DNA of 64,000 bases from contig CM048845.1 of assembly GCA_026545225.1 (NCBI GenBank), positions 101,304,033 through 101,368,032 of the forward strand. The letters run 5' to 3'. Under the pieces are notes generated by a model. It searched no databases, was not told the origin of the DNA, and was given only the letters and a program-made list of their open reading frames with translations. The DNA is from Cornus controversa. Its lineage: Eukaryota > Streptophyta > Magnoliopsida > Cornales > Cornaceae. The position numbers and the translations under genes are program-made. Below are positions 17,779 through 56,000 of this stretch, in pieces; position 1 is the first letter of the stretch; each line of letters starts with the position of its first letter.

Positions 17779-18039
17779 TTTGATTATCGTTATGAATTTA
17801 AGTCGCTAATATATTTATCTTTCATTATTGTATTATCTTCTAATTATTCTTTTAGATCACTTGGTTATTCATTTATTGATTTTTCACCTAAATTACTTGT
17901 TATTTTACTACTAATAAAAAATTGTTGAAATGAGAGAAGATGAGGAGTGACATAGAGAAAAAAGAGGAAGGTTTTGAGATAAGGATAAAAGTTAGAAGTT
18001 TTAGAATAAATTAAATTATTTGGGCCTATTATTAAATTT

Positions 18040-19043: not shown

Positions 19044-19452
19044 TTAAATTTTTATCATTGGTTGAAGTTTATCACTACAAGGAACACAACATTTTTAGAA
19101 AGTCTAATAATATTAGAAAATAAAAAATTTAGGAACTCTTATTAAAGAAATAAAATAATTTGAAAGCCTTCTATTGGCTAGAGTCTTAGGCAATCGCCTA
19201 ATTTGCCTAAGGATTTAGCCCACCCTATGTATGACCCGTGATCATAACTAGGGAATGTACTTTTTCTTATACTTGCTGTAGATTTCTTGCCAAAAGGAAC
19301 ATTGATTTTGATCATATATATATATATCTGGCTGAGTTATACTTCCGACTGTTCACATTCAGCCAATTAACACCATGATGAAGCAGTAGGCAATGGAAAT
19401 GCCTCCTGCATGTGATGATATACATAGTCAGTAGGTAGTTTATATATGTGTA

Positions 19453-25279: not shown

Positions 25280-26695
25280 TGATCGGCGTTGAATGTTACA
25301 CATTCTAACCTCTTAACTTACATATTTTATTCTCTTAAGGATAGATTATTTTGTGATTTTACTTCATTTTAGTGTTTTCTATATTTTCAGGGTCTTAATG
25401 ATTATTTTAGTTAAAACCATGATTTTGGGCTTTTAAAGATGACATCCAAGAGGGTTAGATGAAACTTACATCAAGTGGATCCATTCAACACCTTATTTTA
25501 ACTCAAAACAGCTCAAGGAAGAGGCCCAAGAGAATTATAACTGCTGAAGGGTATTTCGGGCTGAAATTTAATTCTGCGCGTAATACAGTTTTAATTTCAT
25601 TTTGGAAAACAGCACGTAACTCTTATTTTCGAGCATCAAATTGACTTAATTGTCACAAAGGTTGAACAAAATTCGATTCTGGACACTTTTATATTTCATG
25701 TAAATTTTGTGAATCGAACTTCTACTGGGTCAAACTTTGGGCCGAAAGTCAGCAGAAAAATCCACCTGATTAGGGGCTGCGGGAAATCCTAATTGTCTCC
25801 TAATTAGGTGGGGACTCTTCATATTCTCTTGGCTATTAATAGTGACAAATTGGGGCTATATTGAGGAGACTTAGCAGCAGATTTGAAGAGCTTTTGGAGT
25901 AGAGAATCATTGGAGAACAAGGCGTATCATGAGCAGCTAGTTCAGCCACCAGGGTTTTGATGTAGCCCTAACTAAACATCACTGGTTTGATTGTTCTAAT
26001 CATTGGAGATTTTTGTATTCATTCATAGATTGTGTAATTTAGAGGATTCTTATTATAGAATTGAGAAATAAAAGTCTTATAAATTCAGTTTTAATGATTT
26101 CTTATCTTGTCTTAGATACTTGATTGTTGTTATTGAACTCGTCCCTCTTGTTTTCTGTGATCATGAGAATGATTATTACACAATGGTTTTTATTGAATAT
26201 ATCATTAAAAGCTTTGATGGATTATGTCTAGAAAAGATAAACCATACTGCACCCTAGAGTAGAGTAATTAGGCAGATGGCCCATGCCAATCGAAGATAGT
26301 CCATGACTTAGCCTTAATCATATGTTATCTTCTTGACGGATGAAGGTGAGCTTGTAGCCACCGACACCACTTATGCATGATATGATTCCCCATAGTTAGT
26401 TTAATTGACCATTGATTGTGAAGTTAGTGGTGAAATCAATAACCCTAGATTTATCTTATATTCTCTACACTCAATAATTTTTCTTGCTTTTGTTCAATTG
26501 TTTCATTAGTTAATTTAGTTATAAAAATCATAATTCTTTTCTCTTAAATTTAATTAGAATTAATTCCGTATATCCAACTTAGTCAGACCACAGTCCCTGA
26601 GGTTTGACACCCCTTTCAATAGCCCTATTCTGCAAGGAATTCGTTCTATTGCGAAGTGTAGTAATTTTAATTAAGACGCACTCACACACGAATCA
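25280..26695 (+). repeat. LTR of the Athila-like element (1.4 kb)
   Basis: Begins TGATCGGCGTTGAATGTTAC and ends CACACACGAATCA. It is the same family as the inverted solo LTR at 29007-30505. It directly follows a polypurine tract, so it is a 3' LTR. Confidence 0.82.
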
Positions 26696-28478
26696 CCCAA
26701 CTTCCCTTCCTCATACTGGAGGGCACCACTAGCTCTGCACGGGCCATCACCAAGAGTTCGGATTGACTTTCCAAGAAGCGAGCTAAGGCAGATGAGAAAT
26801 TCTGAATCTCGAGCTCGTCGTGGCCCCTGGGGATGGTCTGGTCATAACCGAATTGGCGAGCTACCCTATCAGAGCGATAAATCTTGCTAACAGTTGTAGC
26901 AAGAGTGGCAAAGCCAGGAAGGTTTCCAGGGGTAATGAACGCCAGGTTGGTGAGGGCCTCGTTGGAATATAGGTTATCTCTTCTGAGAACCTAACCAACG
27001 GTCGAGCTATAGAAGGGACGAGGGGGCCTAGTAAAAGCAAAAGCTCTGAAGTGATGCTCTTTGTCAATAAATTGTGAGAATTTCTTGCAAGGAACGACCA
27101 CTTTGTTCCACCTGGCCGAGCGGTGGCTACCACTTTCGGGATTTATTCGAGGAGCATAAGAGGGAAAATGTTCATATATGAACATTTGTAGGAAGGTGAC
27201 TGAACCAAACTAAGCAATATGAAGCTTGGCCATGCTCTGTTTATAGCATGTGTTAAAATTATCCAAGGCATGGTAGAGGGTGCCCAAGAACAAAGGGGCG
27301 AGGGGGATATGTACTCCTCAAGCCAGTTTCACCACGAGCGGAATAAGGTCAGGGCTCGAAGTGTCCTCGGGAGGTTCGGGAAAGATAGAGCGAGACAGCC
27401 AAGAGAGGATATAGGCTGCCAAATGTAAATGATTCTCACTTCGAGGCCCTGCCACCCACTTGCTCTTGTCATTGTGGGAGAAATCTCTAAAAAAATGGTG
27501 AAGAAGAGAAACCCAAGTACACTTTCCCCCAGTTTCAGGAAGGGACTCATGAACCACCTCGCCCTTTTTGTTAAAGCGAGTTGCCAGCTTGGAGACAGCC
27601 TGAATTTCCACTTGAAGAGCTGCCACACGCTGCTCCTCGACCTCAGAGAAAGCCCATGTGGAGGGGTCAGTTGTGCCAAAAACATTAAGTCTCAAGAGAA
27701 CGTTAACATCTTCGAGGGTAGGGATGAACTTACCCCAGGAAGTAATGAAGGTATGTGAATGAGTACTCCACCTCGAAATGAGAACTTGAAGTTCTATTGC
27801 ATCCCTGTTTATGGTGAGGCTTCGAGTGTTCTCAATGGCCTCGAGGATCCCAGCATTAGTTAGGCATTTTACATAGTCAGAGACAGAGAAAATAAAGTCT
27901 GTCCATTCTTCCCACCCTATACAGGCAGTGGTGGGGATGGGAAGGTAAAGGAAGGAGTAGGGAAAATCGCCACACACGATCCTAAAACGAAGAACAGAAT
28001 CTGAGGGAAGTCGAGGACCTTCTATGACGGGAGGTCTTGAGTCAATGGCCACTGGCTCGCCCACCAGCTCGTCAATGTCTGTTAAGTTTTGTGTTTGATC
28101 GCAAAAAATGTCATCAGAGCATAATGGAGCTATTCTCCAATCCTCGAAAGGAGGTACCTTGAAAGCATCGTGGGAGCTAGTCTTCGACTTGTCTTGAATA
28201 AGTTTGAAAGGAAGGGGGAATTGAGAGCTCGAAGTTTGCTCTAAGAAAAACAGAGACTCAAGGCAAGAAGTGTGAAAAATGAGATTTCTCTAAGACACCC
28301 TTTTATAGTAGAGGCCTTTTAACCGACAAGATATCGAAGCGATGCAATGCTCCAAATTTGAGGCATTGAATAGTCTCAAAGCACAAGAAATAAAGTGACA
28401 AAGCGCTGCCTGAATCGTTATCAGCCATTAATGACGATCTGAAGAGACGCCGACTTTGCAATTTTTGAAGAGGTCAAA
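26696..28478 (-). mobile_element. Antisense plant-mobile-domain (PMD) region of the gypsy composite
   Basis: The longest frame is 27318-28064 on the minus strand (about 248 codons), opposite to the LTR direction. It reads like the plant mobile / aminotransferase-like domain of MAIN and MAIL1: a GWEEWTDF motif, then AGILEAI, TINRDA, LISRWSTHSHTFITSWG and FIPTLEDVNVLL, then a Trp-rich HHFFRDF-like part. Such domains are known to have been picked up by gypsy elements. The minus-strand sequence from 27317 to about 26750 looks like a broken continuation. Fossil. Confidence 0.72.
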
Positions 28479-33784: not shown

Positions 33785-34175
33785 CATTGAGAATCATACC
33801 TTAGGAGGACTTTACAAAGAACTTAGGGGGACTTTACACAGAAATATGTCTTACGCCAACTGACATTGACTATATATATATATATATATATAATGCCATG
33901 ATTACACGAAGACAAAGTGTCGTGCGATTGAGAAATATGTCTTGCTCGAATATATCTTATTCGCCCAGTTTATATAAAATCAATTTCAGTTCGAATAAGA
34001 CATATTGTATATATACAAAGGCAAGACATATTTCTCAATCGCGTGAGGCTCTGTTTTCGTGCGTACATATATAAATATATATAAAGTCAATGTCAGTCTG
34101 CGTAAACCCACCGTAACCGTTACATTAAGTAACTGTAGATTGTTTTTAGCATGAGACATTTGCCAACTTTAAATG

Positions 34176-34217
<42 letters not shown>

Positions 34218-34369
34218 GTACCTATTAAATATCGAATGAAGAAATTCCATGATTGCACGATGACAAACTCTCACGCGATTGAGAAATATGTCTTACGCGA
34301 ACTGACATTGACTTTATTATATATATAAGTTTGTCATCGTGCAATCATGGAATTTCTTCCTTCGATATT

Positions 34370-34372
<3 letters not shown>
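33785..34372. repeat. Cluster of inverted repeats upstream of the TNL gene
   Basis: The motif GATTGAGAAATATGTCTTaC followed by GAACTGACATTGACT occurs in direct and inverted orientation several times (near 33838, 33925, 34030-34100 and 34265). The sharpest hairpin is 34226-34369: arms of about 41 bp (core GAAATTCCATGATTGCACGA and its complement) with two mismatched positions at most, around a ~58-bp loop. It may be a foldback MITE cluster. It ends about 150 bp before the TNL start codon. Confidence 0.75.

Positions 34373-34422
<50 letters not shown>
34373..34422. repeat. (TA)n microsatellite in the TNL promoter
   Basis: About 24 TA units, less than 100 bp upstream of the start codon, where a TATA element would be expected. 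Another long TA run lies at 34178-34214. Confidence 0.93.
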
Positions 34423-34517: not shown

Positions 34518-35023
34518 ATGGCTTCCACGAGCACACACTTAGCGTCTCCCTCCTCTACCCCTAAATGGAATTACGATGTATTCTTGAGCTTCAGAGGCGA
34601 AGACACTCGTAAGAACTTCGTAGACCATCTGTTTGCTGCTTTGTCTCAGAAAGGAATCCACACCTTTAAAGATGACGAAGAACTCAGAAGTGGGGAAGAA
34701 ATTTCACCCGCACTCTTGAAAGCAATCGAAGAATCGATGTTTGCTCTCATCGTTTTCTCCAAAAACTACGCTTCCTCCAAGTGGTGTTTGGATGAACTGG
34801 TGAAAATCCTTGAATGCAAGAAGATGATGGGCCAAAGAGTCATACCAGTGTTCTATGATGTGGATCCTTCAGAAGTGCGGAAACAAACAGGGAGCTTTGA
34901 ATCAGCCTTTGAGATTCACGAGAAAGCTTTCAGTGGGAACATGGAGAAAGTGCAGACCTGGAAAACAGCTCTAGTGGAAGCAGCAAATATAAGCGGATAC
35001 AGCGTTCCGGATACAGCAAACGG
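34518..35023 (+). CDS. TNL exon 1 (TIR domain)
   Basis: Encodes residues 1-168 plus two bases of codon 169. It ends ACGG before the donor GTAATT. The donor itself creates an in-frame TAA (35025-35027), so unspliced message would stop after residue 169 and give a TIR-only protein. Confidence 0.92.
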
Positions 35024-38000
35024 GTAATTACTTAGCTTTGACGCATGTTTAGTTAGTTCCACTTCTCTCGTAATTATATCTGGTTTTCGGATAATTGAAA
35101 AATAAAAATCAATTATATATATATATATACACATTAGTGAATAGTGATATCTTGTTCACCTCGAAATTTAATCACATCTTCTATAGTGTAATACCCCGCT
35201 CCAACACATGGTATGATATTGTCCGCTTTGGGCCTGAACCCGCACGGTTTTGCTCTTGGGTTTACCCCAAAAGGCCTCATACCATTTGAAGAGAACATAC
35301 TACATATAAGCACATCCCCTTTTCCACACCCAGGCGATGTGGGATTGAGCACCTTGTACCAGTGTCTGTTTATGCACCCGCCCACTCACACCCGTCCACA
35401 AGGGTTACTACAATCCACCCCCCTACGAGGCCCGACGCCCTCGTCGGCACACTTACTTCCGGCTGGGTTCAGGCTCTGATACCAACTGTAATACCCCGCT
35501 CCAACACATGGTATGATATTGTCCGCTTTGGGCCTGAGCCCGCACGGTTTTGCTCTTGGGTTTACCCCAAAAGGCCTCATACCATTTGAAGAGAACATAC
35601 TACATATAAGCACATCCCCTTTTCCACACCCAGGCGATGTGGGATTGAGCACCTTGTACCCTGTCAGTGTGGTAGCTCAGCCCAGTGTCTGTTTATGCAC
35701 CCGCCCACTCACACCCGTCCACAAGGGTTACTACATATAGTGACAGTTATTCCAAATCTACTCATCTCCTTTTCCAAAAACAACAAAACAACTTTCTTTC
35801 TTTCTGTTTTAAATTAGTCCTTACCTAAGAAAAGTAATTAATAACCAAAAAAACATTGGAAAATTTTCATACCTTTATCCCTGGGCAGCCTCAAATTTCA
35901 GATTTTGAAAGCAAAATGATTGGATGGATAGGTACTCAATATTTAAATGATAGAGAAATTAGAAATAAGTAGAATTTATGGTAGGGGCTAAACTAATTAT
36001 ATGTCTCACGTTATTTACCGGAAAAAAATATTGTATGTATCACATTCACAAGAAGCAAAAGCTGTAAGATTAATAGCGCTATCAAGGTCTTAACCTTCTA
36101 ATCAAAATCCTATTCATTGTGATAAGTTTCCACATAGCTTCACCCTGCATCACTAGCAGCATACTTTTATGTCTGAAGGTTTCAAGTTCAATTAGTCATA
36201 AATTGAAATGTTGTATACTTGAAAAAGATTCGCTGCATAGTCTTCTAAATGAGTGGTCATTGTTGGCTTGTATTGTTTGAGCTTTTCTTGCTTGATTCAG
36301 TGGCCAGAAAAAATATTCTCCTCAAGAATATCATTTTTTTCCTTTTGGTAGATACCAACAAAATCATGGTCCTCTTGTATAATCATGTTATTCTAGTTTC
36401 AAATACATAATATATCAAAACAAAGTAAAGAAGGAAGAAGAGGCAAAGAAAATAATTCCTTTAGCCTGTGATTATCGTCTAAGATCCTGAAGTTGGGTTG
36501 ACTGGATGTTTATTGGGCTTTGCTGGGACTAGACAGATAAAAATCTACCCTTCATTTTCCTTTTAGAAGTATGAAGTTTGAGGTTTGACAAATGTTTGAA
36601 ATTTTTTTGATGTGTTTTCATCATTATCTTTCTATTTTTTTTTTTTTTTTTACAATAGCATTGGTAATATTAATTTTAAAAATTTAAAATAGGGAGAAAT
36701 GATTTTATGATTTTTGGAAAGGAGATAAGTGAGTTTGGAATTTGATTGTTAGAGGTTACTATAGAAGGTGTGACAAAAAGAGATCACTATTGTCAGTTGC
36801 AGCTCAACATAATTTGAGGTCTTAGCCGAAAATATAAGAGTGACCCTTTAACATGTAATATATTAATATCAAATATTAGTTAATAATGTTTATATAAAAA
36901 TCATTCTTATTAAAATTATTATATTTAATTGGACCATTTTCTATTAATAAATCTCTTAATTTTTTAACAAGATATTTCCGGTGAATAAATATTTGTGGGA
37001 ATATAATATGATTTTTGAATAAGATCTTCATTTTTTTTACTTGGTTAACTTTTCTTCTATTTTTTTTTCATGTTCTTCGTAAAGAATTTTTTTATTATCA
37101 TTATGAATCTAAGTCGCCAATATATTTTTCTTTCATTATTGTATTATCTTCTAATTCTTTTAGATGACTTGATTGTTCATTTGTTGATTTTTTATCTAAA
37201 TTTCTTGTTATTTTATTATTAATTATAACAAAAAAAAACGTTGTAATGAGAGAAGAGGAGAAAAGGTGAGGAATAGGAAAAAAAAGATAAAAGTGAAAAT
37301 GAAAAGTTTTATAATTTTCAATTTTTTACAAATATCCGTTAAGTATTATATTCAACAATTCATAAAAAAATGTGAAATGACGAGTGAGATAAGGATAGAA
37401 ATTAGAAGTTTTAAAATGAATTAAATTATTTGTCCTATTATTAGATCTTCACCATTGGTTGGGGCCTAATCATACGTGGAAACAGAAATTTTACAAAGTC
37501 TAATAATATTAGAAAATAAAATTTTTAAGAACTCTTATTAAGGAAATAAAATAATGTGGAGACCTTCTATTGGCTGGGGCCTTAGGCGAGACTCCTAAGT
37601 CGCCTAAGGGTCCAACCGCCCTGACTATTTTGTGTGTATATATATATATATATATATAAAATAAAATCAAGTTTCGAAAATGGAATTTTTGGATAACATT
37701 CTATAATTATTCTCTCAAAACTTTTTTTTTTTTTTTTTGTCTTTACAAATAACTCCCACAATACTTTTGGAACACTTAAGCCTTATGTTTTTTTACTTTA
37801 AAAAAAGAGCAGATACCACTATTACTTTGAAAAAAGCAGGAGATACCATTAGATCTTAGACATTGGTCAAAACTCACATTTTGAATATATATATTCTTGA
37901 ATTACTGCTGATTCATATTCATATACACGCGACGATAAACGTTTATCCAGATATTTTTACTTTTCACTTTTCAGGGAAAAAAATACACATGACAATATAC

Positions 38001-41000
38001 ACTTCAATCCAATTATATAAACATTTACCAATGGGCACTAACCCAGATAGGTTGAGAGTTTTAGCTATGTTAGGGCAATATTATGGATGTGCATTTGCTT
38101 TATTTTTTTAAAAAAAACCTATTATATAAACATTTCAATTATACTTATATCTAACTTATTCTGGAAAAGAATAACTAATCAATCTCTAGTTCGGAAACTA
38201 ACCACCTTTTATTTGTTCTATAATAACGTGAGCACTCCTAATTACAAAAATATCCATAAATAATTATAACTATAAGAAATTCAAATTGAATGGAATATTG
38301 ACTCTAATTATGACGTCTCATATTGTTTGGAGGGTGGAGGGAGAAGTTGCAGACAATTAATTATATGTGTGGATGCTACACATTTTGAAAATCGTGAACA
38401 CGAAGATTGTGCAAAGTGTGGTGACAGATGGTATGAGGACTCTCGGTTCCAAGAGTTCATTTGAAATTGAATCTAAAATCCAATTCTCTCACTAGAATAA
38501 AATTTTAATTAATTAATTTATTATGTTATCCAAATCAAAAAATAAAATAATCAAAAAATCTAAATTGTTCCTATTATAAAAAATATTATTGCCAAGTGAC
38601 AACATGTATTGTTTGTGGATACAAGTGTGTGCGTTTTGTGTATATAAACATGTCCATGTTTATCACGGATTACTCTGGGTTAGCTAAGGAGAGAACTTTC
38701 AAGCAAAAGGCAAAAGTCAAATAGTTGGAGGTGGGATCAAGATATTACCTTATTTTTCAAGAGTTTGAATGATAAAAATGATTGAAGGAAGCTGACGAAA
38801 TTGTTGGAACACCAGAAGCAAAAATACATGGAGATCTAAGCACAAATAATAATCCAATCACACAAGAACACAAGGTTTAACGTAGTTCGGCATGACCGAC
38901 TTGCGTCTATAAATAAGAAGAGATTTCACTATAGGTTTTGTAGAAAAATTATTACGGTAGAGAATACTCGATATGGAACTGTGTACACTACCTCCCGCTC
39001 TAGGGTATGGTGGCCAATACCTGAGCTTTTCACATGTACTAATCCACGAGAATTTGTGTTGGTGTTGGCACCTAATCTTGGCGCCACTTGGCAGCCGAGG
39101 ATGAGGTGGTTGTGACTAAGGGCTGATTAGGAGTCCATTCCTACAAAAACTCTAAGGGTTGAGAGTTGGTAGCAAGGTTGTCCTAAAGAAGGTGCTGGCA
39201 TAAATATATATATGGTTACTTAAATGCATGTATATGTGTGTTTTTTATTACTGTTTTTACAGATTGGAAGCAAGGAGTCCAGGATGATTTGGACTCCAAT
39301 TAATTTGGTGCAGAGTGAAAGACTGAATTAGTGCATGATGCGAATAGTTAAGCCTAAAACAGGACTCTGGGCTGATAGCCATGAACGATGGGTCAATTTG
39401 GGTAAAGTCTAAGCTGAATATGTGAGTTAGAATGCAACTTGAACTCTACTGGAGTATAACAGATAGAGTCATTCACACCTTAGACTCTAGGGAAGTCCGA
39501 GAATTGGTAAATTGTTTGTGGATAAGGACTTTGATGATCAAGCCACTATCGTGAAGTCGGCTAAGCAGAGTATACATGTAAAGTTGTGCATTGACAAGTT
39601 AGTATTGTACAAGGACTCCTACGAGCTTGGGCTGCATTGGAAGACTTTGGTGTAGTATGAACTCTTTCAAAGAGGAGCTGATTTGCTACTAAAGACACGA
39701 GACATTAGAATAGGGATAGTTCATTTCCTTTTATTTTTTCTTCTGCATTATCTTGTAATTTAAAGTTAGAAGCGAGTAGTGATGTATCTCTCTTTACTAT
39801 AAATAAATACAAAGGGACTTTGTATTAGGGGTTCCCAACAACCACAATTCAACAATTGCGTCGCTTGCAATTTGTTTCTCTCCCTCAATATTCTCCTAAA
39901 TATTGCTTTGTTTCTCACTCAATCTACATCTCTCCCATTTTTTTTCTCTCGGCCTCCTCTAATCAGTCTGTTCGTCTATCTCTCTCTCAATTTCTACCTC
40001 CCCCCTTGCTCTGTCCCTCCTTCTACCTCCCTCATTGCTACGATTTAGTCTTGCAATTCTTTGCACACAGATAAAATGTCCTCTTGATTGAGGCAAAAAA
40101 AGAACTCAATAGGGAGTTTCGTATTCTCTCTTTAGTCAATCGCCTGATCCAACACGACCTTCAAAGGAGATATTTGTATTCGACCATCTGTTTACATCGA
40201 GCCGATATCACGGCTTTGGCACGTAAACAATCGGCCTATCTGGCTCATTAATTAAGAACAAACATATTTTGACATGCGCGGTGGGACCCGAAAAGTATTA
40301 AAGAATTGAGAATATGCCGCCTAAGCTAAGGTTCGGACAGAACTCAGCCACTGGCGATGATGAGCAAGAGGAAGAAATTCCTCAGCCTGTAGGAGACCCT
40401 ATGGCTGACCCGTCAGATATGGCAGTCTTGATGGACGCCATGCATGCAATGCGTGTTCAACTTGGTGAGGTTAGCACCAACTTAAGATGATTGGACAAAA
40501 GGATCACCTAGATTGGTGTTCAAGCGAATGACCGAATAGACGAATTAATGAGGCAATCGACCATCCAGAATAGATCGATCGTTCAGGGCTCCAATGCCCA
40601 AGAGTCTTCCCTCCAACCAAGGGCTCAGCAGATCGACAAGGAACAGAAGGGCCCAATATTACCTCTGCCTTAGCCTTCTGTACAAAGCAATCTGCCGTCT
40701 AGCAGTTCTCAGCCCGATGAAGCTGAAAACCAGCTATCAATCGAGACTATGAATAGACGGTTGCCTGAACCTCATCAGATACATGCTATCGAGACCTTTG
40801 ATCACGGGCCGAATAGGTAAGTGGTCATTGGCCTTGATGGAATTTAACTTTGTTTATGTCCCTCAGAAGTCAGTCAAGGGTATGGCATTGTTGAATTCTT
40901 GGCTGACCACCTGTCGACTGATATTGACCCATACATTTTAGACGAACTAGAATCGGCAGCCTTGTTCATGACACCTTGCGTTGATGTTTGACGGTTCTAG

Positions 41001-44000
41001 TACCAGCGATGGTGCAGGAGCAAGAATAATGATCGTCTCCCCAAACGGAAGAAGGATAACCTTTTCTTTCTTCTTAGATTTCAAGTGCTCCAATAATCAA
41101 ACGGAATATGAGGCCGTGATCATCGGTCTAGAAATCCTGTTAGAAATGTCGATTAAGGATGTACACATAATAGATGATTCGAACTTAGTCCTTAGCCAAA
41201 TATCTAAGGATTTTCGATGCCTAGCTTGGCAGTTGAGGCCATTTCACTCATTGGCTCTTCAATTGGTTAAATAATTTGATACTATCAAACTGGAATATCG
41301 GCCAAGGGAATTCAACAAAGAGACAAACGATCTAGCCCAAATAGCCTCAGGGGTAAGGGTCTCGAAAGGATTGACTGAGAGACTAATCAAAGTATCACGA
41401 AGAAACCTTCCATAGGCAGAAACATGGAATGCAACCATAGCCGATCCATTCGCAGTAGATATCGACTCATTAGAGGATAATAACTGGAGGCATCCTTTGG
41501 TAGATTTCCTAAAAAACCTTAATCGGCCTGTGGACAAAAAGGTTAGAAGAAAAGTCGTGAGGTATTTGTTGTTAGCTGACAAGCTCTATAAAAAGAGCAC
41601 AGAAGATGGGCTCCTGCTCCAATGCATTAGTAAAACAGAATGCTTGAGGATTCGGGTTGAGGTCCACGAAGGCACTCGTGAGGCTCATCAAGCAAGGATA
41701 AAAATTTGTTGTCTAATAAGAAGGTACGGGTATTATTGGTCAAGAATCTTGAAAGATTGCATAGAATATGCTAAAGGCTGCAATGCCTGCCAAAAGCATG
41801 GGCTGATTCAAAGGGTTCCCGCCCGAGAGATGCAACTGAATGTCAAACCATGGCCATTTAGAGGATGGGCCATGGATCTTATCGGCAAGATCAATCCACC
41901 ATCAGCTGGCAGACACCATTGGATCATCGTAGCTACAGATTATTTTACAAAATGGGTGAAGGCCATGGCTTATCGGTCAGTGGACCAATGGGTAGTGATC
42001 GATTTTATCAAAAAACATATTTTTTATTGTTTTGGCCTTTCGGAGTCCATTGTGGCAGATAACGGAACTGATTTCAAAGCATTAGAGGTGCTGGCCTATG
42101 GAGAAGAAATGAGAGTTAAGATGGTAACCTCGACACCCTATTATGCCCAAGGTAATGGGCAAGGCGAGGCATCAAACAAAGTGCTCATCAGGATTATTGA
42201 AAAGATGATTGACAAGAAGCCAAGGTTATGGCATGAGTCGTTATCAGAGGTTTTTTGGGCTTATAGGAATTCCAAGAGGACAAGTAAAGGCGTCCCTCCA
42301 TATCTGTTGACTTACGAACATGATGCCATTCTTCCCATGGAATTGAATGTCCGATCGACCAGGGTGGCACTACAGCAGAACTTACAACCAGCCAAATACA
42401 TCTTGCCATGCTAATCGAGTTGGAGGACTTGGATGATATCTGCTTGAAAGCTCTGGATCACATTAGAGCCCATAAGCGAAAAGTGATGAAGGCCTATAAT
42501 AAAAGAGTAAGGTCGAAATCATTTGCTGAAGGTGACCTCGTCTGGAAAGTAATCTTGCCAGTGGGGAAACATGACAGAGCTTATGGTAAGTGGTCCCCAA
42601 ATTGGGACAACCCTTATTTGGTACACCAGATTGTGAATCAAGGTGCATACAGATTAAAATACTTAAATGGAGGGGTTCATCCTAGGCCGATCAATGGCCT
42701 TTATCTAAAGGAGTATCGGCCGACTTTATTTGAGCGGTTAGCAGAAGAGTTTGGCTAGGCCACTTGGTCCATCTGAGAGTAGCCAGTGGCAGGATCTTGA
42801 GAACAGTATATGGTTACATTTTTTTTCTGTTTTATTGTTTCTTTTATCTTAAAGTTTGTTTTGCAATGTTTTTTTTTAGTACTTTTCATAAGATAATAAT
42901 AAAAAAAGGGCCTTATCAAAAGGTCAGTTACAGTCCATAGTTCATAAGAGTACAAATTTTTTTTATGGAAAATAGTTCTATTAATCTTCACAATTCGTCA
43001 AAGTTTGACTTCATGTTGTCCCAGAAGAGCCTGTTTTGTTGCAAGACAAGGTCAGCAAGAACTTTGTTCTTCTGCAGCTCTGGAAGTTCAGCCTTCAGAG
43101 CAGAATGCTGGGTAACTAACTAGTTAGTTTTCTCTAATAGGGTGTTAGCCCTGGAAGTAACATCAACCCTGGCAGATTGAACCCGGGCAAGCTCTTCATG
43201 AAGCTTTTGTTCTTCCCTTCCAAATTCTTTGTTCATTTGATCAAGTTTGCCAAATTCAGCCGCGATCTCCAGAATTTTGGTGCCCAGTATCTTCTCGGCC
43301 TCGTATTTCTCTTCAATTGAGAAAGCGCGTTGGTGGCCTCAGAAATGAAGTCGACCATCGCAGGCAACTGTACTTGGAAAGAAGCCACTACAGCTTGCAT
43401 GACTAGGGAAAGGTCCCCATGCAGGTTGATGTTGGCTAACAGGGTCGAGATCTCATTTGCCATGGAGGGAAGGTCCAGGAGATCCCGTTCAAAGATTTTC
43501 TGTAGGGCCCCTTTGGCTTCTACAAATGTTTGGGAAGGAGGAGTTAGAGTAACGGGAGGGTTAGCATTAGACGAAGAACTATCCGTTGAGACTGCGGCGA
43601 CCAAAGACTGAAGATAATTTTTCATAGCAGAGAAGGATCCGCCAGTAGGTCGCGGAGAGAAAGATTGGACTTGTTTCTGAAAATAGAAGGCACTGTGAGA
43701 GAACTAAAGAACCAGGTGAGGCATAAAGAAAGCTTTAAGGGAAGAAATACACACCTCTTTGATAGGGGTAGGAAACTCGGCCACGTTTCTTGTGGTTGAA
43801 GTCGCTGGTTGCACTAGTAAAGGTGCTGGAGAAGGGTCCGGGTCTGGGTCCTTGACCGATTTGCCGCTACCTTCTAAGACGAAAGGAGGTAGTTCGGCCC
43901 CTTCTGCTACAGGAAGAGGCTGACACTGAAGTCCACCTCTGACATCAGCCTAGAGAAAAAATAAACGGATTTTGAACAAGGATCAACAAACAAAGCAGGA

Positions 44001-47000
44001 GAAGAGGAGGCAGGAGATATCTTGGTGTTGAGAAATAAGCCCCCAATCATGAACCACCAAATATTACGATGTGATGATAAGTAAACAAGCACAAAGAAAT
44101 TTGCTAGAATACAACGAGATATCGTGGTTCGGCTAAATAAGCCTACGTCCACAGAGAGCCCGATTTCATTATATAGATTGTAACAAATCAAGTTGAAGAA
44201 TTGTATCAAGAGTATGCTCAACTCTCGACCCTTAACCCTTATACACCCAATCTCACTCAAAAGGAAATCACAAATTTTAAACAAGAATTCTCTCTCTAAG
44301 TGTCCTCTCAATAACAATGAAAGTATTACCTCTACGCAAGAGTTGCCCTCTCAAAACAATGAGAGTAGCCTCTCAAATACAATGAGACTATTGCCTCTTT
44401 TCTTCTCACTCCTCTCAACCTATAATATAGGTAACTATTTATAGAGGCCAAAACCCAATTCCTTGGTGGATTAGGATTAGGATTAGAATTCCTTAGAGCC
44501 CAAGACTTGCCTAACAAGTACTTTCCTTCCTTGAGACCAAGACTTGCCTACTAAGAAATTACCTAATAAGATACAACTCTATAATAAAAACCTAATCACA
44601 ATAGGAATTTGAGCCAACCTAACACTTGGGAATGGAGCTCAGCCCTTTTTTGCTTTTCTTGACCAAAGGTTCATAATCTGAACCAGATTCTGGGTCTGGA
44701 GTGGGGTCCGCAATAAGCTTAGTACCCTTTAATGAGCCTTTGGTTGTGATCTTCTTTCTTTTTGGCTGAGATCGAGGAATTGTCATGACAGTCCCAGGAA
44801 AAGAAACAAACGACCAAAGCTTGAAGTTTACCTTAGGAGGAAGAGGCTGCGGGGCCTGGGTTTCAGGCTAAGGCTGAGGCTGACTTCGAACTTCTTCGAC
44901 TTGTGGGTCCATGTCAATAGTGAGATCGATTGGTTGATCACTGACGATGTGGCTAGAAGATTGGGCTACAAAGAAGAATAACCAGGTCGAGCACAATGAT
45001 CCAGGAAACAAGAAGTGAAACGAAGAATCAGCTTAAATAAAAAACAAATATATCACCTTGTTTAAACTTAGATCTCGTCCTGGTGGTGGTTGGGGCACTG
45101 GTGATGAGAGGGATTGTGACACCCTTTGCAATGGTTTTCCTATCTTTCTTGTGAGAAACGACTGGGGAGGGATCATCCCATGAGAACTGACTGATGAGAA
45201 CTTAAAGGAAACGGTAAGACGCTGGAAGAAAGAAGGCTCATCAACATCCAGGGCCAGGCCAAGGCCATATGGGACGCCCACCAGGTGTTGAAGGAGGGAT
45301 CGGGCTGAGGTTGAGAAGTAAAGGGTTGGAACCGAAATCGGTTTATAGCATTTTTGTTCTTGGCCGATACATCCTGAACGTATTTGGCCTCCTAAAATCT
45401 GACCCTTTTGTCAAAGGTTTGGTTGTAAGACTGATAGGGAGGCAGAGGAATCATTTGCACGAGGCCGAACTGTCTTGCAAACTGAGCCGGATTGTAGAAT
45501 TCCACCCCCACCCAACTGTTGGGTGAGTATAAGGGGGCAGAGCTGTAATGGAGGTCTCGGCCTATCAGGAAGCTAGCCCAAGAAGCATTGTAATCATCTA
45601 ATTCCTACTTAGTAGAGGAGCTGGTGGGAGTCTGAAGCCATATGGGGGTTTGGGGCAAATCAGAAAAAGGAAGAAATTGGGAGGTCGATCGGTGACAGCA
45701 ATGAAGGAAGAAGTCAACACAATCTTTGAATGATTGGGACTTGGGCAAGGCCGAAGCGTACGAGAAAGAAACTAAGGAGTCACTGGCTGAAGGAGATACT
45801 TCTGCACTCAACTCAGGGAAGTAAGCCCTCAACCAGATCTATAGTAGCCAGAAAGGACCTCCTGAGTGAACATAATGGGTCCACAAGAGGTCATGAAGAC
45901 CTCTATAAAGATAGTAGAGAACAAAAGGGGCCAAAGTAAGGGCCTTACCTTTGGCCAAGGCCAGTGCAATTTCAAGGACATCCTTAGTGACTTGGAGGGC
46001 TAGTATACAAACAAGGCACTTGTTCAGCCAATACAGCAGGAATGCGACATGCTCGTCATTCTCGACCGGCTTAGTAGTCTTCATGGTGGCTCTCATAAAA
46101 GGACTGTAGGATGATACAGTGGCCTTACTGCCTGTGGTTTTGGTAGAATAATCAAACGTCATTGTTGATTCTGGAAGAAGAGAGCTGACCTCAATGCCAG
46201 CCGCTTTTAGCCAGTTAGCATACAGACATCTCTGACCGTCGGAGAATGCATTCCACAGGATAAATGGAGAGAGTTGGTCGTAATTGACCAAAACAGGGAA
46301 GCGGAGCAGAGAAGATATTTTTCTTGAATCATGGGCATGGTGCTAAGCTTGATGACGTCATAGATGCCGCAAACTTTTCACAGTTTTCCTTTAGAAACAA
46401 GGACACGATCTACTTATGCATTCTAGTCAGAATTGATCGAATGCCAGTTCCGAAGTTGGAAGTTAGTGGTGGGAGGTTCGTTGATGGTTGTAAAACTCTG
46501 AAACATAAGGTGCTTCTCTGCCAGTGGGTAGAAAGATGAAATCGTGAGAGGCATCTCTTCCATGAAGGCAAGGCCAAGACCCTTGGAGTCGTTGGGGAGT
46601 TCAATTAGAACGTCCAAATGAAGCTGGCTAAGGGCAGTAGCGTTAATCGTCGCCTTGGCCTGCTTACCATTAGAGGAAGGGTCATCAAAGGGGAAAGCCA
46701 GATCAGCAGATTTAGGAGCCATGGAGTTTGTTGCACAGAGCAAGTGGGATTTTTGTTTTTAGAAATTGGGAGGATTACAGTTAAAAAAGCTGAAGACTTG
46801 TGAAAGAAAAGGGGGAAGGTGGCTAAGCTTATATAGCGTTTCACAAGGGTTTTCAAACGACTAAGGTGGTTGTGACCTTTTAATGAAAAAGTGCTCAGCC
46901 GATTAAGGCAACAAAGGCTCCCTAACTTATTGGGAAAACCAAACGGCTAAGGCGCTTTTCAAAATTCAAATCCCTTATAACTCACGCGAATGAGGTGAAG

Positions 47001-50000
47001 AAGCTCATCCTAAGTATTTAAATTTGGGGGGCAATTGTTGGCACCTAATCTTGGTGCCACTTGGCAGCCGAGGATGAGGTGGTTGTGACTAAGGGCTTAT
47101 TAGGAGTCCATTCCTACAAAAACTCTAAGGGTTGAGAGTTGGTAGCAAGGTTGTCCTAAAGAAGGTGCTGGCATAAATATATATATGGTTACTTAAATGC
47201 ATGTATATGTGTGTTTTGTGTAACTGTTTTTACAAATTGGAAACAAGGAGTCCAGGATGATTTGGACTCCATTTAATTTGGTGCAGAGTGAAAGACTGAA
47301 GTAGTGCATGATGTGAAGAGTTAAGCCCAAAACAGGACTCTGGGCTGATAGCCATGAACGATGGGTCAATTTGGGTAAAGTCTAAGCTGAATACGTGAGT
47401 TAGAATGCAACTTGAACTCTATTGGAGCGTAACAGATAGAGTCATTCACACCTTAGACTCTAGGAAAGTCTGAGAGTTGGTAAATTGTTTGTGGATAAGG
47501 ACTTTGATGATCAAGCCACTATCATGAAGTCGGCTAAGCAGAATATACATGTAAAGCTGTGTATGGACAAGTTAGTATTGTACAAGGACTCCCACGAGCT
47601 TGGGCTGCATTGGAAGACCTTGGTGTAGTATGGACTCTTTCAAAAAGGGGTTGATTTGCTACTGAAGACACGAGACATTAGAATAGGGATAGTTTATATC
47701 CTTTATTTTATCTTCTGCATTATCTTGTAATTTAAAGTTAGAAGCGAGCAGTGATGTATCTCTCTTTGCTATAAATAAATACAAAGGGACTTTGTATTAG
47801 GGGTTCCCAACAACCACAATTCAACAATTGCATCGCGTGCAATCTGTTTCTCTCTCTCAATATTCTCCTGAATATTGCTCTGTTTCTCACTCGATCTATA
47901 TCTCTCCCATTTTTCTTACTCTTCCTCTAATTAGTCTGTCCGTCTATCTCTCCCTCAATTTCTACCTCCCTCCTTGCTACGATTCAATCTCGTAATTCTT
48001 TGCGCACAGATAAAAGTCCTCTTGATTGAGGCAAAAAAAGAACTCAATATGGAGTTTCTTATTCTCTCCCTAGTTAATCGCCTGATCCAACATGACCTCT
48101 AAAGGAAATACTTGTGTTTGACTATCTGTTTACATCGAGCCGATATCACGGCTCTGGCACGCCTGCAACAGGCTGAGAAATTTCTTCCTCTTGCTCATCA
48201 TCGCCATGGGCTGAGTTTCGTATAGACCTTAGCTTAGGCGGCATACTCTTAATTCTTTAGCACTTTTCCAGTCCCACCGGGCGTGCCAAAATATGTTCGT
48301 TCTTAATTAATCAGTCGAATAAGCCAATTGTTTGCAGGCGTGCCAGAGCCGTGATATTGGCTCAATGTAAATAGATGGTCGAACACAAGTATCTCCTTTG
48401 GAGGTCGTGTTGGATCAGACGATTGACTAGGGAGAGAATACGAAATTCCCTGTTGAGTTCTTTTCTTGCCTCAATCAAGAGGACTTTTATCTGTGCACAA
48501 AGAATTGCAAGACTGAATCGTAGTAATGAGGGAGGTAGAAATTAAGAGAGAGATAGATGGACAGACTGATTAGAAGAGGCCAAAAGCAAGAAAAATGGGA
48601 GAGATGTAAATCGAGTGAGAAACAGAGCAGTATTTAGGAGAATATTGAGGGAGAGAAACAGATTGCACGCGATGCAATTGATGAATTGTGGTTGTTGGGA
48701 ACCCTTAATACAGAGCCCCTTTGTATTTATTTATAATAAAGAGAAATACATCACTACTGTTTCTGAATCTAAGTTAAAAGATAATGCAGAACATAAAATA
48801 ATAAAAGAAAATACATTATCTATATTCTGATGTCCTATGCCTTCAGCAGCCTATCAGCCTCTCTTTGCAAGAGTCCATACTGAACCAAAGTCTTCCAATG
48901 CAGTCCAAAATCGTAGGAGTCCTTGTACAATACAAACTAATCCGTGCATACACACAGATCATGTTTATACGCATATTCTGTATAACCAACTTCACAATAG
49001 TGGTAACTTGATTACAAGAGTCTTTATCCATGAAGAGTCCATCAGTACTTAGACTTAATCTAGAGTCCAAGTGTGAATAACTCTATCCCCTACATCCTTA
49101 TAGAGTCCAAGTAAACTCACTCTTCCACTTTGTATTAAAATCACTGGAGTCTAATTTACACTGGACTCCTTGCTTCCAGCCTGCAAAAAACAATTATACA
49201 AATATATATATACACCCATATGTATACGTGTAACCACACATGCATTTATATAGGTGCTAGCTACTTTTTAGGACAACTTGCTAAAAGTCCTCAGCCCTTA
49301 GAGTTTCTTTCGTGATAGACTCTTTGTCAGCCTTACACATTCATCCAAATGACCCCTAAAGTGGCTGCCAAGTGGCGCCATATTTGGGTGCCAACAGTTG
49401 GTCATCAGTGTTCTATCCACTAGATTCCACTCCACTAACCACTAACAACATCTATACAGACTGTGCAAGGTAGAGGATTAGAGACCTTCACACAACCATC
49501 AACTCGCTCACAAAGCTACATCTTTCTCAATCTCAAAACTAAGTGTCTATTTATAGAGTCCTAAACCAAGGATTATAATTCTTTTGAACCTATGTATACC
49601 TCCAACAAAAATTCATAAACAAAATATAAGTCTAAACTAGAAATATGGAATGCCTTTAAATGCAATTGACCACGTGACAGTGGAGAAGAACTTTTAGAAG
49701 ATGTGTAGACTTTGTTAGATTTAAATTAACAAGGGTAAATATCACCGACACCCCTTGAAGTTTGATGTATTGACACGCAACTATAACTTTGTGAATTTTT
49801 GTCATCAACACTCCCTGTGGTTTGTGCAATATATCACATATACCCCCTCCTGCTAAAAATACACCATGTCAGAACACTTTTTGACGGTGAAATGACTATG
49901 TTGCCCTTTGACTTTTGACCTAACCCATTTGAATACTAAATTTACCTATTTAGCCCTATCTAATGGTCCAAAATACCCCTTTGACTATACCTATATATAT

Positions 50001-53000
50001 ATACTATAATATATATAATTATTTATTTTCATAAATAATAATGTTTAACATAAAATAAAAAAAGTAATTAAATTTCTCTTTCTTTTTCTCTATCTATCTA
50101 TATACACAATATACTATAATATATATATAACCTATATATAATTATTTATTTTCATAAATAATAATGTTAACATAAAATAAAAAAGTAATTAAATTTCGCT
50201 TTCTTTTTCTCTATTCATCTATATATATACACTATAATATATATAACCTAATATATATAATTATTTATTTTCATAAATAATAATATTCATCTGTATATAC
50301 GCTATAATATATGTAATTATTTATTTCTATAAATAATAATATTAACATAAAATAAAAAAATTAGTTATGAATGCATATTATCATGAAGGGTATTGTGGTC
50401 ATTTTTCTATTCTCATATTTTTATATTAAAATACATTTAAATAATCAGGGGTAATCAAGACATTTCACATATTAAAAAAATGAAAAAGCTGACAGGGGGT
50501 GTTGGTGACGAAAATTCACAAAGTTGTATTTGCTTGTCAATACATCAAACCTCAAGGGGTGTCAGTGATGTTTACCTAATTAACAATTAACTTGTAGAAA
50601 TCAAGAATACATCAATAATTAAAGAGGGGATTTTAGCAATCATACTTGATTAATGATTAAACCTTTAGAATACCTTTAGTTTTGTGCAAGAGATCCTTAG
50701 AGTGCACTACTCCCTTTTTGAGAGTTGTCGTATGATGGGATTAAATAAGGTTATAAAGCACTTATATATGACAACAACAGGGGAGACGATTTCTCTACAA
50801 ACAAACATACCAAATTCTCTCTTTTCATCATGAAAACTTATATACCAATAGCTAATAATAAATCCAACCAAATAAAGTTGGAAAACCACGATCCAATAGT
50901 AAAAATTACTGCCAATCAAATTATTGATAATTACATTGCAATCCAGTTTTTAAAAAATATAGTACATAGGACCACAAAAATAATTTTATTCATTCAAAAT
51001 TTTCAACAATCTCCCACTCGGTTCATGCACTTTAAGTTTTATAAAAATGACACTATGGATTGCAACACTTTAGAAAAGTCAAGTGACCACTAATTTTATT
51101 TTAGAAAAAAATACAATTATCGAAATAAATGGATTGAAACTTTAAAACACTCTCTTCCATAGACTTCTTCAATAGTGGATCATGAATGCTTAGATAAGTA
51201 ATATATTAGTTTAAACAGTTTCATGGTCTCAAATCCGATTTCATCTAGGATTTAAGCAAGTATAATGTGGTTTTTATTGTATTTCATGAGGTGTTCAAAC
51301 TGCATGTGGTCTAAATGCGTACCTCATTATCCATCATATTTTTTACCATCGGGGTATGTCACCTGAATATATTACGACAAACTGCCAACCTTCTGTCCAG
51401 TGTAAAGGTTTACCAATAGGACTCCAATCTCATATATAGTCCAAGAGTGTGAAACACTCCCACAGACGCCGACAAACTTTAATAATTATGTTTGGATTTA
51501 CGGATGTGGTGCCAATTTCACATCTTTTTCATATTTTTTTCCCCGATAACCGGGGTGTTCAGAGCTTTGCCTCGACTAATCTCCGGGACACCGTACAAAG
51601 CATCCCCTCCACATAGGTCGGGTAAAGCTCGGCTTGCGCCGCGGGCGTGGCCCCTAAGGAATTGTTTGCACTCTAAGGGAGTCAAACCTTAGACCTGATG
51701 CTTCATGAGGTACCAAGGCCAAGTGACATTACCACTAAAGCCAAACCCTTGGGATTAAGACCCGAGATCCTTTGCTTCTTACATTATAGTCATACTATTT
51801 TATTTGAATGAAAATCTCTATAGTTTTCCTCCACTCTCACTCTTTTTTTGGTTTTTTGTTTGTCCATTATCCTTTTTTTCTAGAAAATAGTTTTGAGTAT
51901 CGACTGATATAAATTCTTCTTATGATTAGACACCTTCACATTTTGAACTAACATAAATTTATAGTAAGCATATAGATTTATATATGTATTTTATATAAAG
52001 TCTGTCCTACAGTTGGTTCAAAACTAAAATTTTTCATAATTTTATAAGCTTTTAGTCACGTGCATTGCACATATACTTTTTACTAATATTTATAGAAGGG
52101 CATCTCTAACACAAGTTTTTTCTCTCCATGTGTTTCTTCCGGTCACTGAATTACTATTATTAAATCATTCAACACTTGAATTTCCAGACCTACATTCAGA
52201 TAAACTTCAATTTTTGTTTATTTTATCCGAAAGTATGATATTCTAATGTCGTTTGAAAGGTCTCAAATAATAGGCATATAACAATTCTTTTCAGTGTGCT
52301 CAATCTTTGGACAAACTAGAGATGCTTTTGTTATTTGTAATAAATGTACTTCCCAAAGTAAGATATCTAGAGTGTGAACCGGGTCAATGTACCTACCTAA
52401 AACCTAATTACATAGGTGTCAATACACTTAGATCTATGGTTCTTTCCATTACTCTAACCATCCAATTTGTATTCAATTTGGGTGTGTTTAGTTGCAAAAA
52501 CGAAATTTAACTATCACTACATCAATTAATTCTCTCTCTCATTATGATTTATTCCAACTCGTCATATATGTATATGCAACTTTCTGACTTTGCAGGCATG
52601 AGTCAAAATGTATCCAACAAATTATTGAAGAGATATTTAGTAAATTGAACCATTCATCTCCAATTGTTGCCGATGATCTAATTGGGATAAAGTCTCGTGT
52701 GGAGGAAGTGGAATCATTGTTACATATGGAGTTGGATGATGTTCGCGCTATAGGTCTATGGGGAATGGGGGGCATAGGAAAGTCAACTATTGCCCAAGCT
52801 GTTTATGACCGGATCTCCCATCATTTTGAAGGTAGCTGCTTTCTTGCAAATGTTAGAGAAGTCGCAAAAAATAAAGGTTTGGTAGCTTTACAAGAACAAC
52901 TCCTTTCAGAAATCTTAATAGGAAGTAATATAAAGATTACTTCTGTTGGTAGAGGAGTAAATACGATAAAAGACAGGCTACGTTACAGACGGGTTCTTGT

Positions 53001-56000
53001 TGTTGTTGATGATGTGGATCAGCTGGAACAACTAGAAGCATTGACTGGAAAGCTTGATTGGTTTGGTTTGGGGAGTAGAATCATCATAACAACAAGAGAT
53101 GAACATCTTCTAACCACTTATGGAGTGACTAAAATATACAATGTGAAGCCATTGAAATGTGGCGAAGCTCTCCAACTCCTTTCTTGGAAAGCCTTTAAAC
53201 AAAGTTTTCCTTCTGAAGGTTATTTTGAGCTCTCAAACCAGATTGTAGATTATGCCAACGGGCTTCCATTAGCTCTTAAAATTTTGGGTTCCTTTCTATG
53301 TGGCAGAGAAGTGGAGAAATGGAAAAGTACATTGAGAAAGCTGCATAAAACTCCTAATGAAAAAATTCTTCAAGTGCTTGAGATCAGTTACAATGGACTG
53401 GACAAAATGGAGAAGAAAATTTTCCTTGATATTGCATGTTTCTTCAAAGGAAAAAAAAAGGATTTTGTAACGAGAATACTGGACAGTTGTGATTTCCACC
53501 CAGACATCGGAATAAGTGTTCTCATTCAAAAGTCTCTCATAACTATTAATTCAGACGATCAATTTTGGATGCATGATTTGGTACAAGAAATGGGCTGGTA
53601 TGTTGTTCGTCAAGAATCTGAAGTGTCTGGGAAACGTAGCAGGTTATGGCTTCGAGAGGATGTTTCTTATGTGTTGGCAGAAAATACAGTAAGATGTCTT
53701 TTGAAAAAGTAGCATTTTTACTAACAGACATTTTATTCACGAAACCACATTTTGTAATCCTAACAGACATTTTCTATTTTACTTGTGTTTTGTGCTACTG
53801 ATTATTAGGGGACTGAAAAAGTTGAAGGCATAGTTTTGGAACAGTTTGAAGCGGAAGATAATGCCTTTAGTACTGCTGAAGCCTTCACAAATATGAACAA
53901 ACTAAGGCTGCTCATATTCCACAATGTGTCATTTTCCCGTGGTCCTGCATATCTTTCAAATGAGTTGAATTGGCTTGATTGGCATGCATACCCTTCGAGA
54001 TGTCTGCCAACAAGTTTTCGGGCAGAGAATCTTGTTGAACTCAAAATGTGTTATAGCCAGATTGTACAGCTTTGGAAGGAAATAAAGGTAGTATGATCAA
54101 TACTGTCATGTATTTTAACTTTATTGAATACTGTCATGTTCGTGAGAGCCAGTTATTCTAATATTAATTTCGATTTCTTTCAACAGCCTCTGCCCAAGTT
54201 GAAAGTCATAAACCTTAGTCACTCCCATAGGCTATCCAGTACCCCGGACTTCACAGTTGTTCCAAATCTGGAGCAACTGATTATTGAGGATTGTACGAGT
54301 TTGTTGGAGGTTCACCCATCCCTTGGAGCTCTCAAAAGGCTTGTTCTCTTAAATTTGAGAGATTGCACAAATCTTAGGAAATTTCCAAGCAGTATTCACT
54401 TGGAATCTCTTGAGACTTTTATTCTATCAGGCTGCTTGAAATTAGGAAAGTTTCCAGAAATCTTGGGGGATATGGTATGTCTATCAGAACTTTATTTGGA
54501 TAGGATTGCCATAAAAGAACTGCCCTCGTCAATTGAACATCTCACTAGCCTTACTTTGATGGATTTGAGTGAATGCAAAAACCTTTCGAGTCTTCCAGAA
54601 ACCATTTGTAGGTTGAGATGTCTGAAAACTCTTGAACTCTCTGGCTGTTCAAAACTTGAGGAATTGCCAGACAACCTGGGAAATATAAAATGTTTAGAGG
54701 AGCTTCACGCAAATAATACTGCAATCAAACGACTACCATCCTCCGTTAATCTTTTGAAAGACCTCAGAGTCTTATCCCTCAGGGGATGCAAGGGAACAGT
54801 ATGTAAGTCGTCATTTGTTTCACTTTTTTTATCTTGGTTTTTACCAAGGAAATCGGAAGATTCTGTGGGTTTGGTGCTTCCTTGTTTAACAGGTTTGTCT
54901 TCCTTACGACTACTTGATCTTAGTGATTGCAATATATCTGTGATCCCCAGTGAGCTTGGCAATTTATCCTCGTTGCAAGGGTTGAATTTAAGAAGAAACA
55001 ATTTTGTTAGTTTACCTGCAATCTCCCGGCTTTCTCGACTTTCTATGCTTGATATAGATGGCTGCAAGAGGCTAGAAGCATTACCAGAGCTTCCATCATC
55101 TATTTTTCACTTAAGTGCAGTTGGTTGCGAATCATTAATAAGCATTGGAGACTTGTCTACAAAGTATTATAGATATCTGTGGGAGATCAGTTTCGCTAAT
55201 TGCTTTAAGCTATTAGAAAATAAATGGAGTGAAAACGTGATTGATATGTTGCTGAGATTTGCGCTGAAATTTGCATTTCAGGTTACTATCTCTCACTCTT
55301 TCTATATATATATATATATAGATAGATATATGCACATGTATATATGAATGAATGGCATGTTTTCTTGGTACAGGGGGACGTGTTTGCCTGTTATAGATTT
55401 AGTATGCTTTTACCCGGAAGAGAGATTCCAGAGTGGTTCAGCTATCAGTATTTTGGTCCTAAAGCATCTCTGCAACTGCCTCCAAATTGGTACAAGGAGA
55501 GAATTTTGGGGATTGCCGTGTGTGTTGTTTGTGACTTCATAACTAAAAAGTCACCCTTTTTTATCTCTTTCCGGTTGGCAGACCATAATAATAATTCATA
55601 TTGTGTAACCCATGAATCCTGTGTTATGCTTGAAGGTATGACGGTTGATTCGGGACATATCTGGCTGTCATATTTTTCAAATCGCTGGCTTCGGCTTCCT
55701 CGGGGTAAGAGTCTAAAGGATTTGTGCCGATTTGAGGTTTACGCAGATGGTAGAAATGGTAGTCCCGACGAGACGTTGCGAGCAAGGGAGTGGGGAGTTC
55801 GTCTGGTGTACGAGAAAGATATATGGAAGGATGGGTGCGGGAATTTGGGAATCATTGAAGAATTAATTGGAAGTGGTTGCTATGACAATGTCGATAAAAG
55901 CTATCATCACTCTGTTGATGAAAGCTATGACAATGTTGATGAAAGCTATCATCACTCTGTCGATGAAAGCTATGACAATGATGATGAAAGCTATCATCAC

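Follow-up and report, generated by a model that had tools for sequence, protein, structure and literature searches.

A Roq1-like TNL gene with nested transposons in its 17.6-kb first intron: probably a tolerated expansion

INTRODUCTION

Can an immune-receptor gene stay intact while its first intron takes up one transposon after another, and does such an intron serve the gene in any way? The question is raised by a gene of the TNL class (Toll/interleukin-1 receptor (TIR), nucleotide-binding (NB) and leucine-rich repeat (LRR) domains) in Cornus controversa. The gene lies in a stretch of 64,000 nucleotides, here called the window, which occupies positions 101304033-101368032 on contig 1 of the 771.7-Mb genome (61 contigs); coordinates below are window positions. 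An earlier note on the window had described an intact TNL gene with nested transposons in a 17.6-kb first intron. Our analysis makes it probable that the locus is a single intact Roq1-like TNL gene, that its intron 1 was enlarged stepwise by nested insertions, and that these were tolerated, so that the expansion would be mainly passive and not a special adaptation.

RESULTS

The TIR and NB-ARC exons join in frame across 17.6 kb

The gene model was built from stop-to-stop reading frames with the help of a splice script. It yielded a five-exon TNL gene on the plus strand (34518-56498), whose joined coding sequence of 4098 nt encodes 1365 amino acids followed by a stop codon and contains no internal stop. 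Exon 1 (34518-35023) starts with the ATG at 34518, encodes the TIR domain and is open over its 168 codons and 2 nt. It is separated by intron 1 (35024-52595; 17,572 bp, phase 2) from exon 2 (52596-53688), which encodes the NB-ARC domain and the winged helix. Exon 3 (53809-54087) is followed by exon 4 (54187-55281), to which the splice script and Pfam assign the LRRs, and by exon 5 (55374-56498), in which Pfam and a tandem-repeat scan located the C-JID domain and an acidic, histidine-rich repeat tail. Introns 2, 3 and 4 measure 120, 99 and 92 bp, and all four introns have GT-AG borders.

The earlier note had placed the TIR/NB-ARC join in phase 2 at TANG-HESKCIQQ, and this proved correct. The N-terminal 248 residues, joined over the intron, align without gaps to residues 6-240 of Roq1 (E 7.6e-81), and at the junction TANG-HESKCIQQI of the focal protein stands opposite TYNG-DESKCIQQI of Roq1 (TYNGDESKCIQQI). 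In alignments, three further TNL genes of the genome, with TIR-NB gaps of 10.7, 11.5 and ~3.1 kb, are broken at the same residues 169/170. The gapless Roq1 alignment and the identical break point in three other genes make a chance pairing of unrelated exons very unlikely. The phase-2 intron between the TIR and NB-ARC exons is, moreover, what is expected of TNL receptors. The sequence thus supports a single intact TNL gene that would be spliced across intron 1.

Pfam searches of the joined protein identified TIR (residues 18-194, E 1.1e-57), NB-ARC (residues 203-427, E 9.7e-30), the winged helix WHD_ROQ1 (E 3.1e-21), C-JID (residues 1004-1140, E 1.2e-16) and LRR families, so that the TIR, NB-ARC and LRR parts of a TNL stand in one reading frame. 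The NB-ARC region aligns to Roq1 with E 1.5e-91. The P-loop, kinase-2, GLPL and MHD motifs and the TIR glutamate are aligned with their Roq1 counterparts, and the claim that five open exons had kept their TNL motifs held. Roq1 is a TNL of solved structure, and the likeness to it is gapless over the TIR domain, the junction and the start of the NB-ARC domain. Judged by these comparisons, the focal gene is a TNL of the Roq1-like kind with a predicted receptor role.

The acidic, histidine-rich tail follows C-JID at 55879-56345 and consists of in-frame tandem repeats of 45 bp and 75/93 bp (90-95% matches); it is followed by a KRKR motif. The tail possibly differs from allele to allele.

Intron 1 contains nested transposable elements

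The earlier note had listed a TRIM (terminal-repeat retrotransposon in miniature), an hAT element, a solo long terminal repeat (LTR) carrying a gypsy composite, a Mutator-like element and a SINE (short interspersed nuclear element). The TRIM, the hAT-type element, the composite and the Mutator-like element were recovered with target-site duplications (TSDs), the LTR that hosts the composite turned out to be an old copia-like remnant, and the SINE was recognized by eye only.

The TRIM (35187-35735) begins 163 bp from the donor of intron 1 and has two LTRs and a 5-bp TSD, TATAG. A primer-binding-site-like sequence places it, by our own reading, on the minus strand. Its LTRs differ at 1 of 226 sites and by one 23-bp gap. 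A second TRIM copy, ~89% identical and in the opposite orientation, is present at 1249-1818.

The hAT-type element (36794-37623) is non-autonomous and belongs to a high-copy family. It is flanked by an 8-bp TSD with one mismatch (ACTATTGT/ACTATTTT), and its terminal repeats resemble each other weakly. Among the 40 candidates scored of 1702 found genome-wide there were 42 non-self matches, some of them partial, with 79-88% identity, and all were confined to ~36783-37627 of the focal locus. More sequence of this family occurs in the window at 16268-18034, 19044-19212 and 62468-63203.

The copia-like LTR remnant is split into a left part (38829-39062, left limit approximate) and a right part (49402-49643, right limit approximate). 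No relative of the remnant exceeds 78% identity in 41 matches (40 of 59 candidates scored). One of these relatives (L033) is uninterrupted across the insertion point of the composite and thus represents an empty site. Downstream of the remnant lies the Mutator-like element (49733-50576), with terminal inverted repeats of ~85 nt (89% identity) and a 9-bp TSD, AATTAACAA. The SINE-like element (~51500-51770, limits approximate, minus strand) was assigned from A/B-box-like sequence; an Rfam search, which included this stretch, returned no matches. Near the 3′ end of the intron, an ancestral stretch on the plus strand (52463-52521) is 83% identical to the tandem neighbour of the gene.

The composite in the copia-like remnant has two 5′ ends

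The composite occupies 39063-49396 (10,334 bp) and is flanked by the TSD GTTGG. LTR A starts at 39063 and LTR B spans 47036-48161, both on the plus strand, whereas LTR C (~48338-49396) is inverted. On the plus strand the interior contains an RNase H fragment (40972-41271; PF13456, E 1.2e-8) and an integrase fragment (41416-42411; PF00665, E 8.7e-10), and on the minus strand a plant mobile domain open reading frame (ORF; 45842-46342; PF10536, E 1.6e-12). By our own reading, the order of RNase H before integrase points to the gypsy type. The plant mobile domain (PF10536) is found elsewhere in the window as well, at 26682-28289 on the minus strand.

Both outer ends of the composite are LTR 5′ ends in opposite orientation (TGTTGGCACC ... 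GGTGCCAACA); despite these odd ends, the TSD is perfect over 5 bp and the empty site matches. We considered whether the composite represents a recurrent family and rejected this: among 64 matches (40 of 625 candidates scored) the inverted junction near 48161 is whole only at this locus, the other matches covering one half each. A possible origin of the composite is a cDNA in which two related elements were joined and which integrated via its two U3 ends.

The insertions differ in age and the composite carries a methylation-like trace

The copia-like remnant is older than the composite, since the composite interrupts it. The composite and the TRIM were dated by LTR divergence, which gives relative ages, not years. 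Over 1126 sites, 59 transitions and 13 transversions separate LTR A from LTR B (K 0.068). The distance of LTR C is ~0.25, and the divergence of the TRIM LTR pair is 0.004. By this measure the TRIM is the youngest dated insertion, and the composite is older than the TRIM.

Methylated LTRs mutate faster. The C-T differences between LTR A and LTR B, counted per cytosine context, amounted to 13 of 53 in CG, 12 of 65 in CHG and 34 of 354 in CHH (CG+CHG vs CHH, P 0.002). On the assumption that the two LTRs did not yet differ at insertion, this bias indirectly suggests past cytosine methylation in the LTRs of the composite.

The tandem neighbour shares the history of both exon blocks

Among 150 scored matches, the closest TIR relative is found in a tandem gene located 32 kb downstream, with 84% identity over 167 amino acids. 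This TNL neighbour (L011-L012; 66921-83593 in window-extended coordinates) is situated outside the window and is broken: it lacks the exon-2 acceptor and the first codons of that exon, its NB-ARC frame breaks and exon 3 contains a stop. At ~72990-82308 its LRR exon is interrupted by a sequence whose 312-bp direct repeats are 99.7% identical, as in a recent LTR element. The TIR exon of the neighbour is intact, with a dN/dS of 0.15 against the focal gene, and the neighbour could survive as a TIR-only gene.

Between the two genes dS was 0.55 in the TIR exon, 0.42, 0.48 and 0.66 in three NB-ARC pieces and 0.56 in the main LRR piece; the values for four further pieces, 28-91 residues long, were 0.31, 0.42, 0.77 and 1.88. 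The dN/dS was 0.33-0.59 in the three NB-ARC pieces, 0.68 in the main LRR piece and 0.15-0.72 in the other four. The similar dS of the TIR, NB-ARC and main LRR pieces indicates that both exon blocks most likely stem from one duplication. A chimera made by exon shuffling was considered, as identity to the neighbour is 84% in the TIR part and only ~62% in the NB part, but it was rejected because dS is similar; in addition, no closer relative than the neighbour was seen for either block.

Changes were also assigned to the two lineages with outgroups (7 TIR and 3 NB loci), ambiguous changes (29 TIR, 90 NB) being excluded. In the focal lineage the ratio of amino-acid to synonymous changes was 4/10 in the TIR and 26/14 in the NB part (Fisher P 0.028), and in the neighbour lineage 10/12 and 41/17 (P 0.067).

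The first introns of the two genes match only in one 59-bp stretch near the 3′ end and in a few donor bases, and the comparison found no element common to both. The focal intron 1 gave no match to the intron of another relative (C4).

Neutral decay would probably have broken the coding sequence

Under neutral decay at the LTR rate since insertion of the composite, 3.7 stops and 7.3 frameshifts would be expected, and none of 5000 simulated coding sequences stayed intact. The probability of an intact coding sequence was 0.0042 at half the LTR rate, 0.031 at one third and 0.107 at one fifth. With transversions regarded as the part of the change that methylation drives less, about half the LTR rate seems fair for the gene. 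The model lends moderate support to the view that the gene was kept by selection after the composite had inserted. The earlier note had stated that selection kept the gene despite its load; the decay model and the decayed neighbour speak for this, but the outcome hinges on the assumed mutation rate.

Long TIR-NB gaps recur in the genome

A pairing script was run on 150 scored TIR matches, from 385 candidates, and 112 scored NB matches, from 971; these are the best-scoring ones and lean to relatives of the query. The script made 93 TIR/NB pairs, of which 91 were kept and 2 dropped for an intervening NB match; for 19 NB matches, no TIR match to pair with lay within 60 kb. The TIR-NB gap, taken as the distance between match ends and thus a few bases above the intron length, had a median of 1,450 bp and a 90th percentile of 6,139 bp. 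With the focal gene counted, it exceeded 5 kb in 12 of the 91 pairs and 10 kb in 5, although the two longest gaps (28.5 and 33.1 kb) are possible mispairings. Two other genes above 10 kb (10.7 and 11.5 kb) were fetched; their TIR and NB exons are open, and the sequence between the exons yielded no further TIR or NB match (E 1e-5). Stops in the NB exon occurred in none of the 12 long-gap pairs (>5 kb) and in 2 of the 79 others, while one of the 12 had a stop in the TIR exon. The length of the focal intron is extreme but not unique: within its genome it is an ordinary case at the far end of the range, and less exceptional than had been thought.

The donor of intron 1 carries an in-frame stop

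The donor GG/GTAA places an in-frame TAA at 35025-35027. All ten TIR exons checked (L015-L024, with the focal exon among them) have ...NG as their last residues and GGG TAA at the donor. This stop follows automatically from a phase-2 intron with a GTAA donor, so its conservation is no proof of use. Unspliced or early-ended RNA of the focal gene would encode a 169-residue TIR protein (...TANG-stop), which would lack the end of the TIR domain: the Pfam match extends to residue 194, and the RUN1/RPV1 TIR matches to 186-187. Intron 1 contains 24 AATAAA motifs, the first 77 nt past the donor, where a dinucleotide model predicts 16.9 (sd 4.2); 24 or more occurred in 23 of 400 simulations, a weak excess.

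An inverted repeat precedes the start codon

About 100 bp upstream of the TNL start codon there is an inverted repeat (34178-34419) with 92-nt arms, 91% complementary, and a 58-nt loop; in the left arm, the outermost 37 nt consist of a TA run. Related repeats are found at 33840-34105. The structure is a possible miniature inverted-repeat transposable element or small-RNA source in the promoter.

DISCUSSION

The exons, the splice sites and the elements are read directly from the DNA, and so is part of the order of insertion, together with the common history of the exon blocks. The course of events that we regard as probable builds on them as follows. Intron 1 would have grown in steps through nested insertions, which could be tolerated because the intron is removed by splicing. 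RNA polymerase would cross the intron and the intact splice pair would remove it; methylation would mask the element bodies and their internal signals, so that most transcripts would reach exon 2, and a minority might end early and encode only the TIR part.

Several observations weigh against this account. The dN/dS of 0.15-0.72 over the NB-ARC and LRR pieces (0.33-0.68 for the NB-ARC and main LRR pieces) comes from a comparison in which the partner is a pseudogene. Counting stops alone, an intact sequence has a probability of 0.15 at half the LTR rate, and the indel and rate estimates derive from a single LTR pair (72 substitutions, 4 gaps), whose members were possibly non-identical at insertion, as the composite looks chimeric. 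The very young TRIM so close to the donor implies a recent origin of the present allele. In base composition, intron 1 does not stand out from its surroundings, CpG observed/expected being 0.53 in intron 1, 0.70 in exon 1, 0.49 in exons 2-5 and 0.59 in the window.

The intron could instead have been co-opted, its heterochromatin setting the ratio of full-length to TIR-only product through early polyadenylation or intron retention, with selection keeping the elements. The recurrent donor TAA, the methylation-like signature of LTR A and B and the weak AATAAA excess would fit such a switch, as would the neighbour with its intact TIR exon and broken NB-LRR part; in Arabidopsis RPP4, polyadenylation in intron 1 is reported to yield TIR-only transcripts (PMC8116057). 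However, the donor stop is automatic, the short product lacks the end of the TIR domain, and the focal gene and its neighbour were found to have no intron element in common. We regard this explanation as unlikely. The regulatory reading of the intron has partial support. A broader version, in which the TNL layout itself (phase-2 first intron, GTAA donor) is a ready-made switch between TIR-only and full-length protein, the transposon load lengthens the gap, chromatin sets the ratio, the focal gene is a heavily loaded instance and the neighbour has drifted to TIR-only, appears doubtful, and we hold the TIR-only switch as a lead, not as a result.

It is quite unlikely, too, that the gene was disabled recently, transcription no longer crossing the intron and the exons looking intact for want of time. 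The slight divergence of the TRIM LTRs would agree with a recent event, and so would the neutral probability of an intact sequence at a gene mutation rate one fifth that of the LTRs; but no splice site is damaged, the composite predates the TRIM, and the two fetched genes with introns above 10 kb have open TIR and NB exons. It seems very improbable that the locus consists of two transcription units, one a TIR-only gene and the other a TIR-less NB-LRR gene with its own start. For Arabidopsis RPP4, an internal start that would yield a TIR-less product was proposed, though unconfirmed by its authors (PMC7529245). In the focal gene a TIR-less product from an internal start is disfavoured because none of the first three ATGs of exon 2 (52598, 52608 and 52673) is in frame; an in-frame ATG first appears at 52726, only ~12 codons ahead of the P-loop. 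Donor and acceptor are intact, and the exon blocks share one history. Tolerated stepwise growth of the intron in one intact gene thus stays our preferred explanation.

The locus shows how far the first intron of an immune-receptor gene can swell with the gene still readable. Should termination in intron 1 indeed yield a TIR-only protein, the length of the intron would count among the variables of immune signalling. The 12 of 91 pairs above 5 kb in one genome form a set for asking whether intronic heterochromatin tunes TNL output beyond Arabidopsis.

Among open papers we found no direct case of a TNL with a giant intron, but there are related systems. Conifer genes are described with introns above 20 kb that have long-read support and are linked to bursts of gypsy elements (PMC12122422); unlike the focal case, these introns are a genome-wide feature and not specific to NB-LRR (NLR) genes. 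Intronic transposons reportedly build up in the resistance genes of Arabidopsis and rice (PMC10241880), and transcripts of genes with heterochromatic intronic elements are reported to end early once silencing marks or IBM2 are lost (PMC10241880; PMC4417168). Heterochromatin control of the focal intron, which the earlier note had suggested on the model of RPP7, is plausible, its one sign in the sequence being the methylation-like signature of LTR A and B.

The focal gene resembles Arabidopsis RPP7 and RPP4 in having transposons in an early intron of an intact NLR gene. RPP7, with COPIA-R7, likewise has an LTR retrotransposon in its first intron. It differs in being a coiled-coil NLR (CNL) and not a TNL, and its proximal intronic poly(A) sites are described as preceding the ORF, the short transcripts thus not coding for the RPP7 protein (PMC8116057). 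RPP4 is the closer precedent, since termination in intron 1 of the focal gene would, by virtue of the in-frame TAA at the donor, give a TIR-only protein. It is a TNL with a transposon, the Helitron ATREP15, in intron 1 (PMC8116057, PMC10241880, PMC7529245), and its transcript forms are reported to be affected by EDM2 and H3K9me2 (PMC7529245). The larger insertion of RPP4, COPIA4 (~4.7 kb), is described as lying in the sixth exon, whereas the focal gene, as read from its sequence, has at least six insertions in one 17.6-kb intron and a whole ORF.

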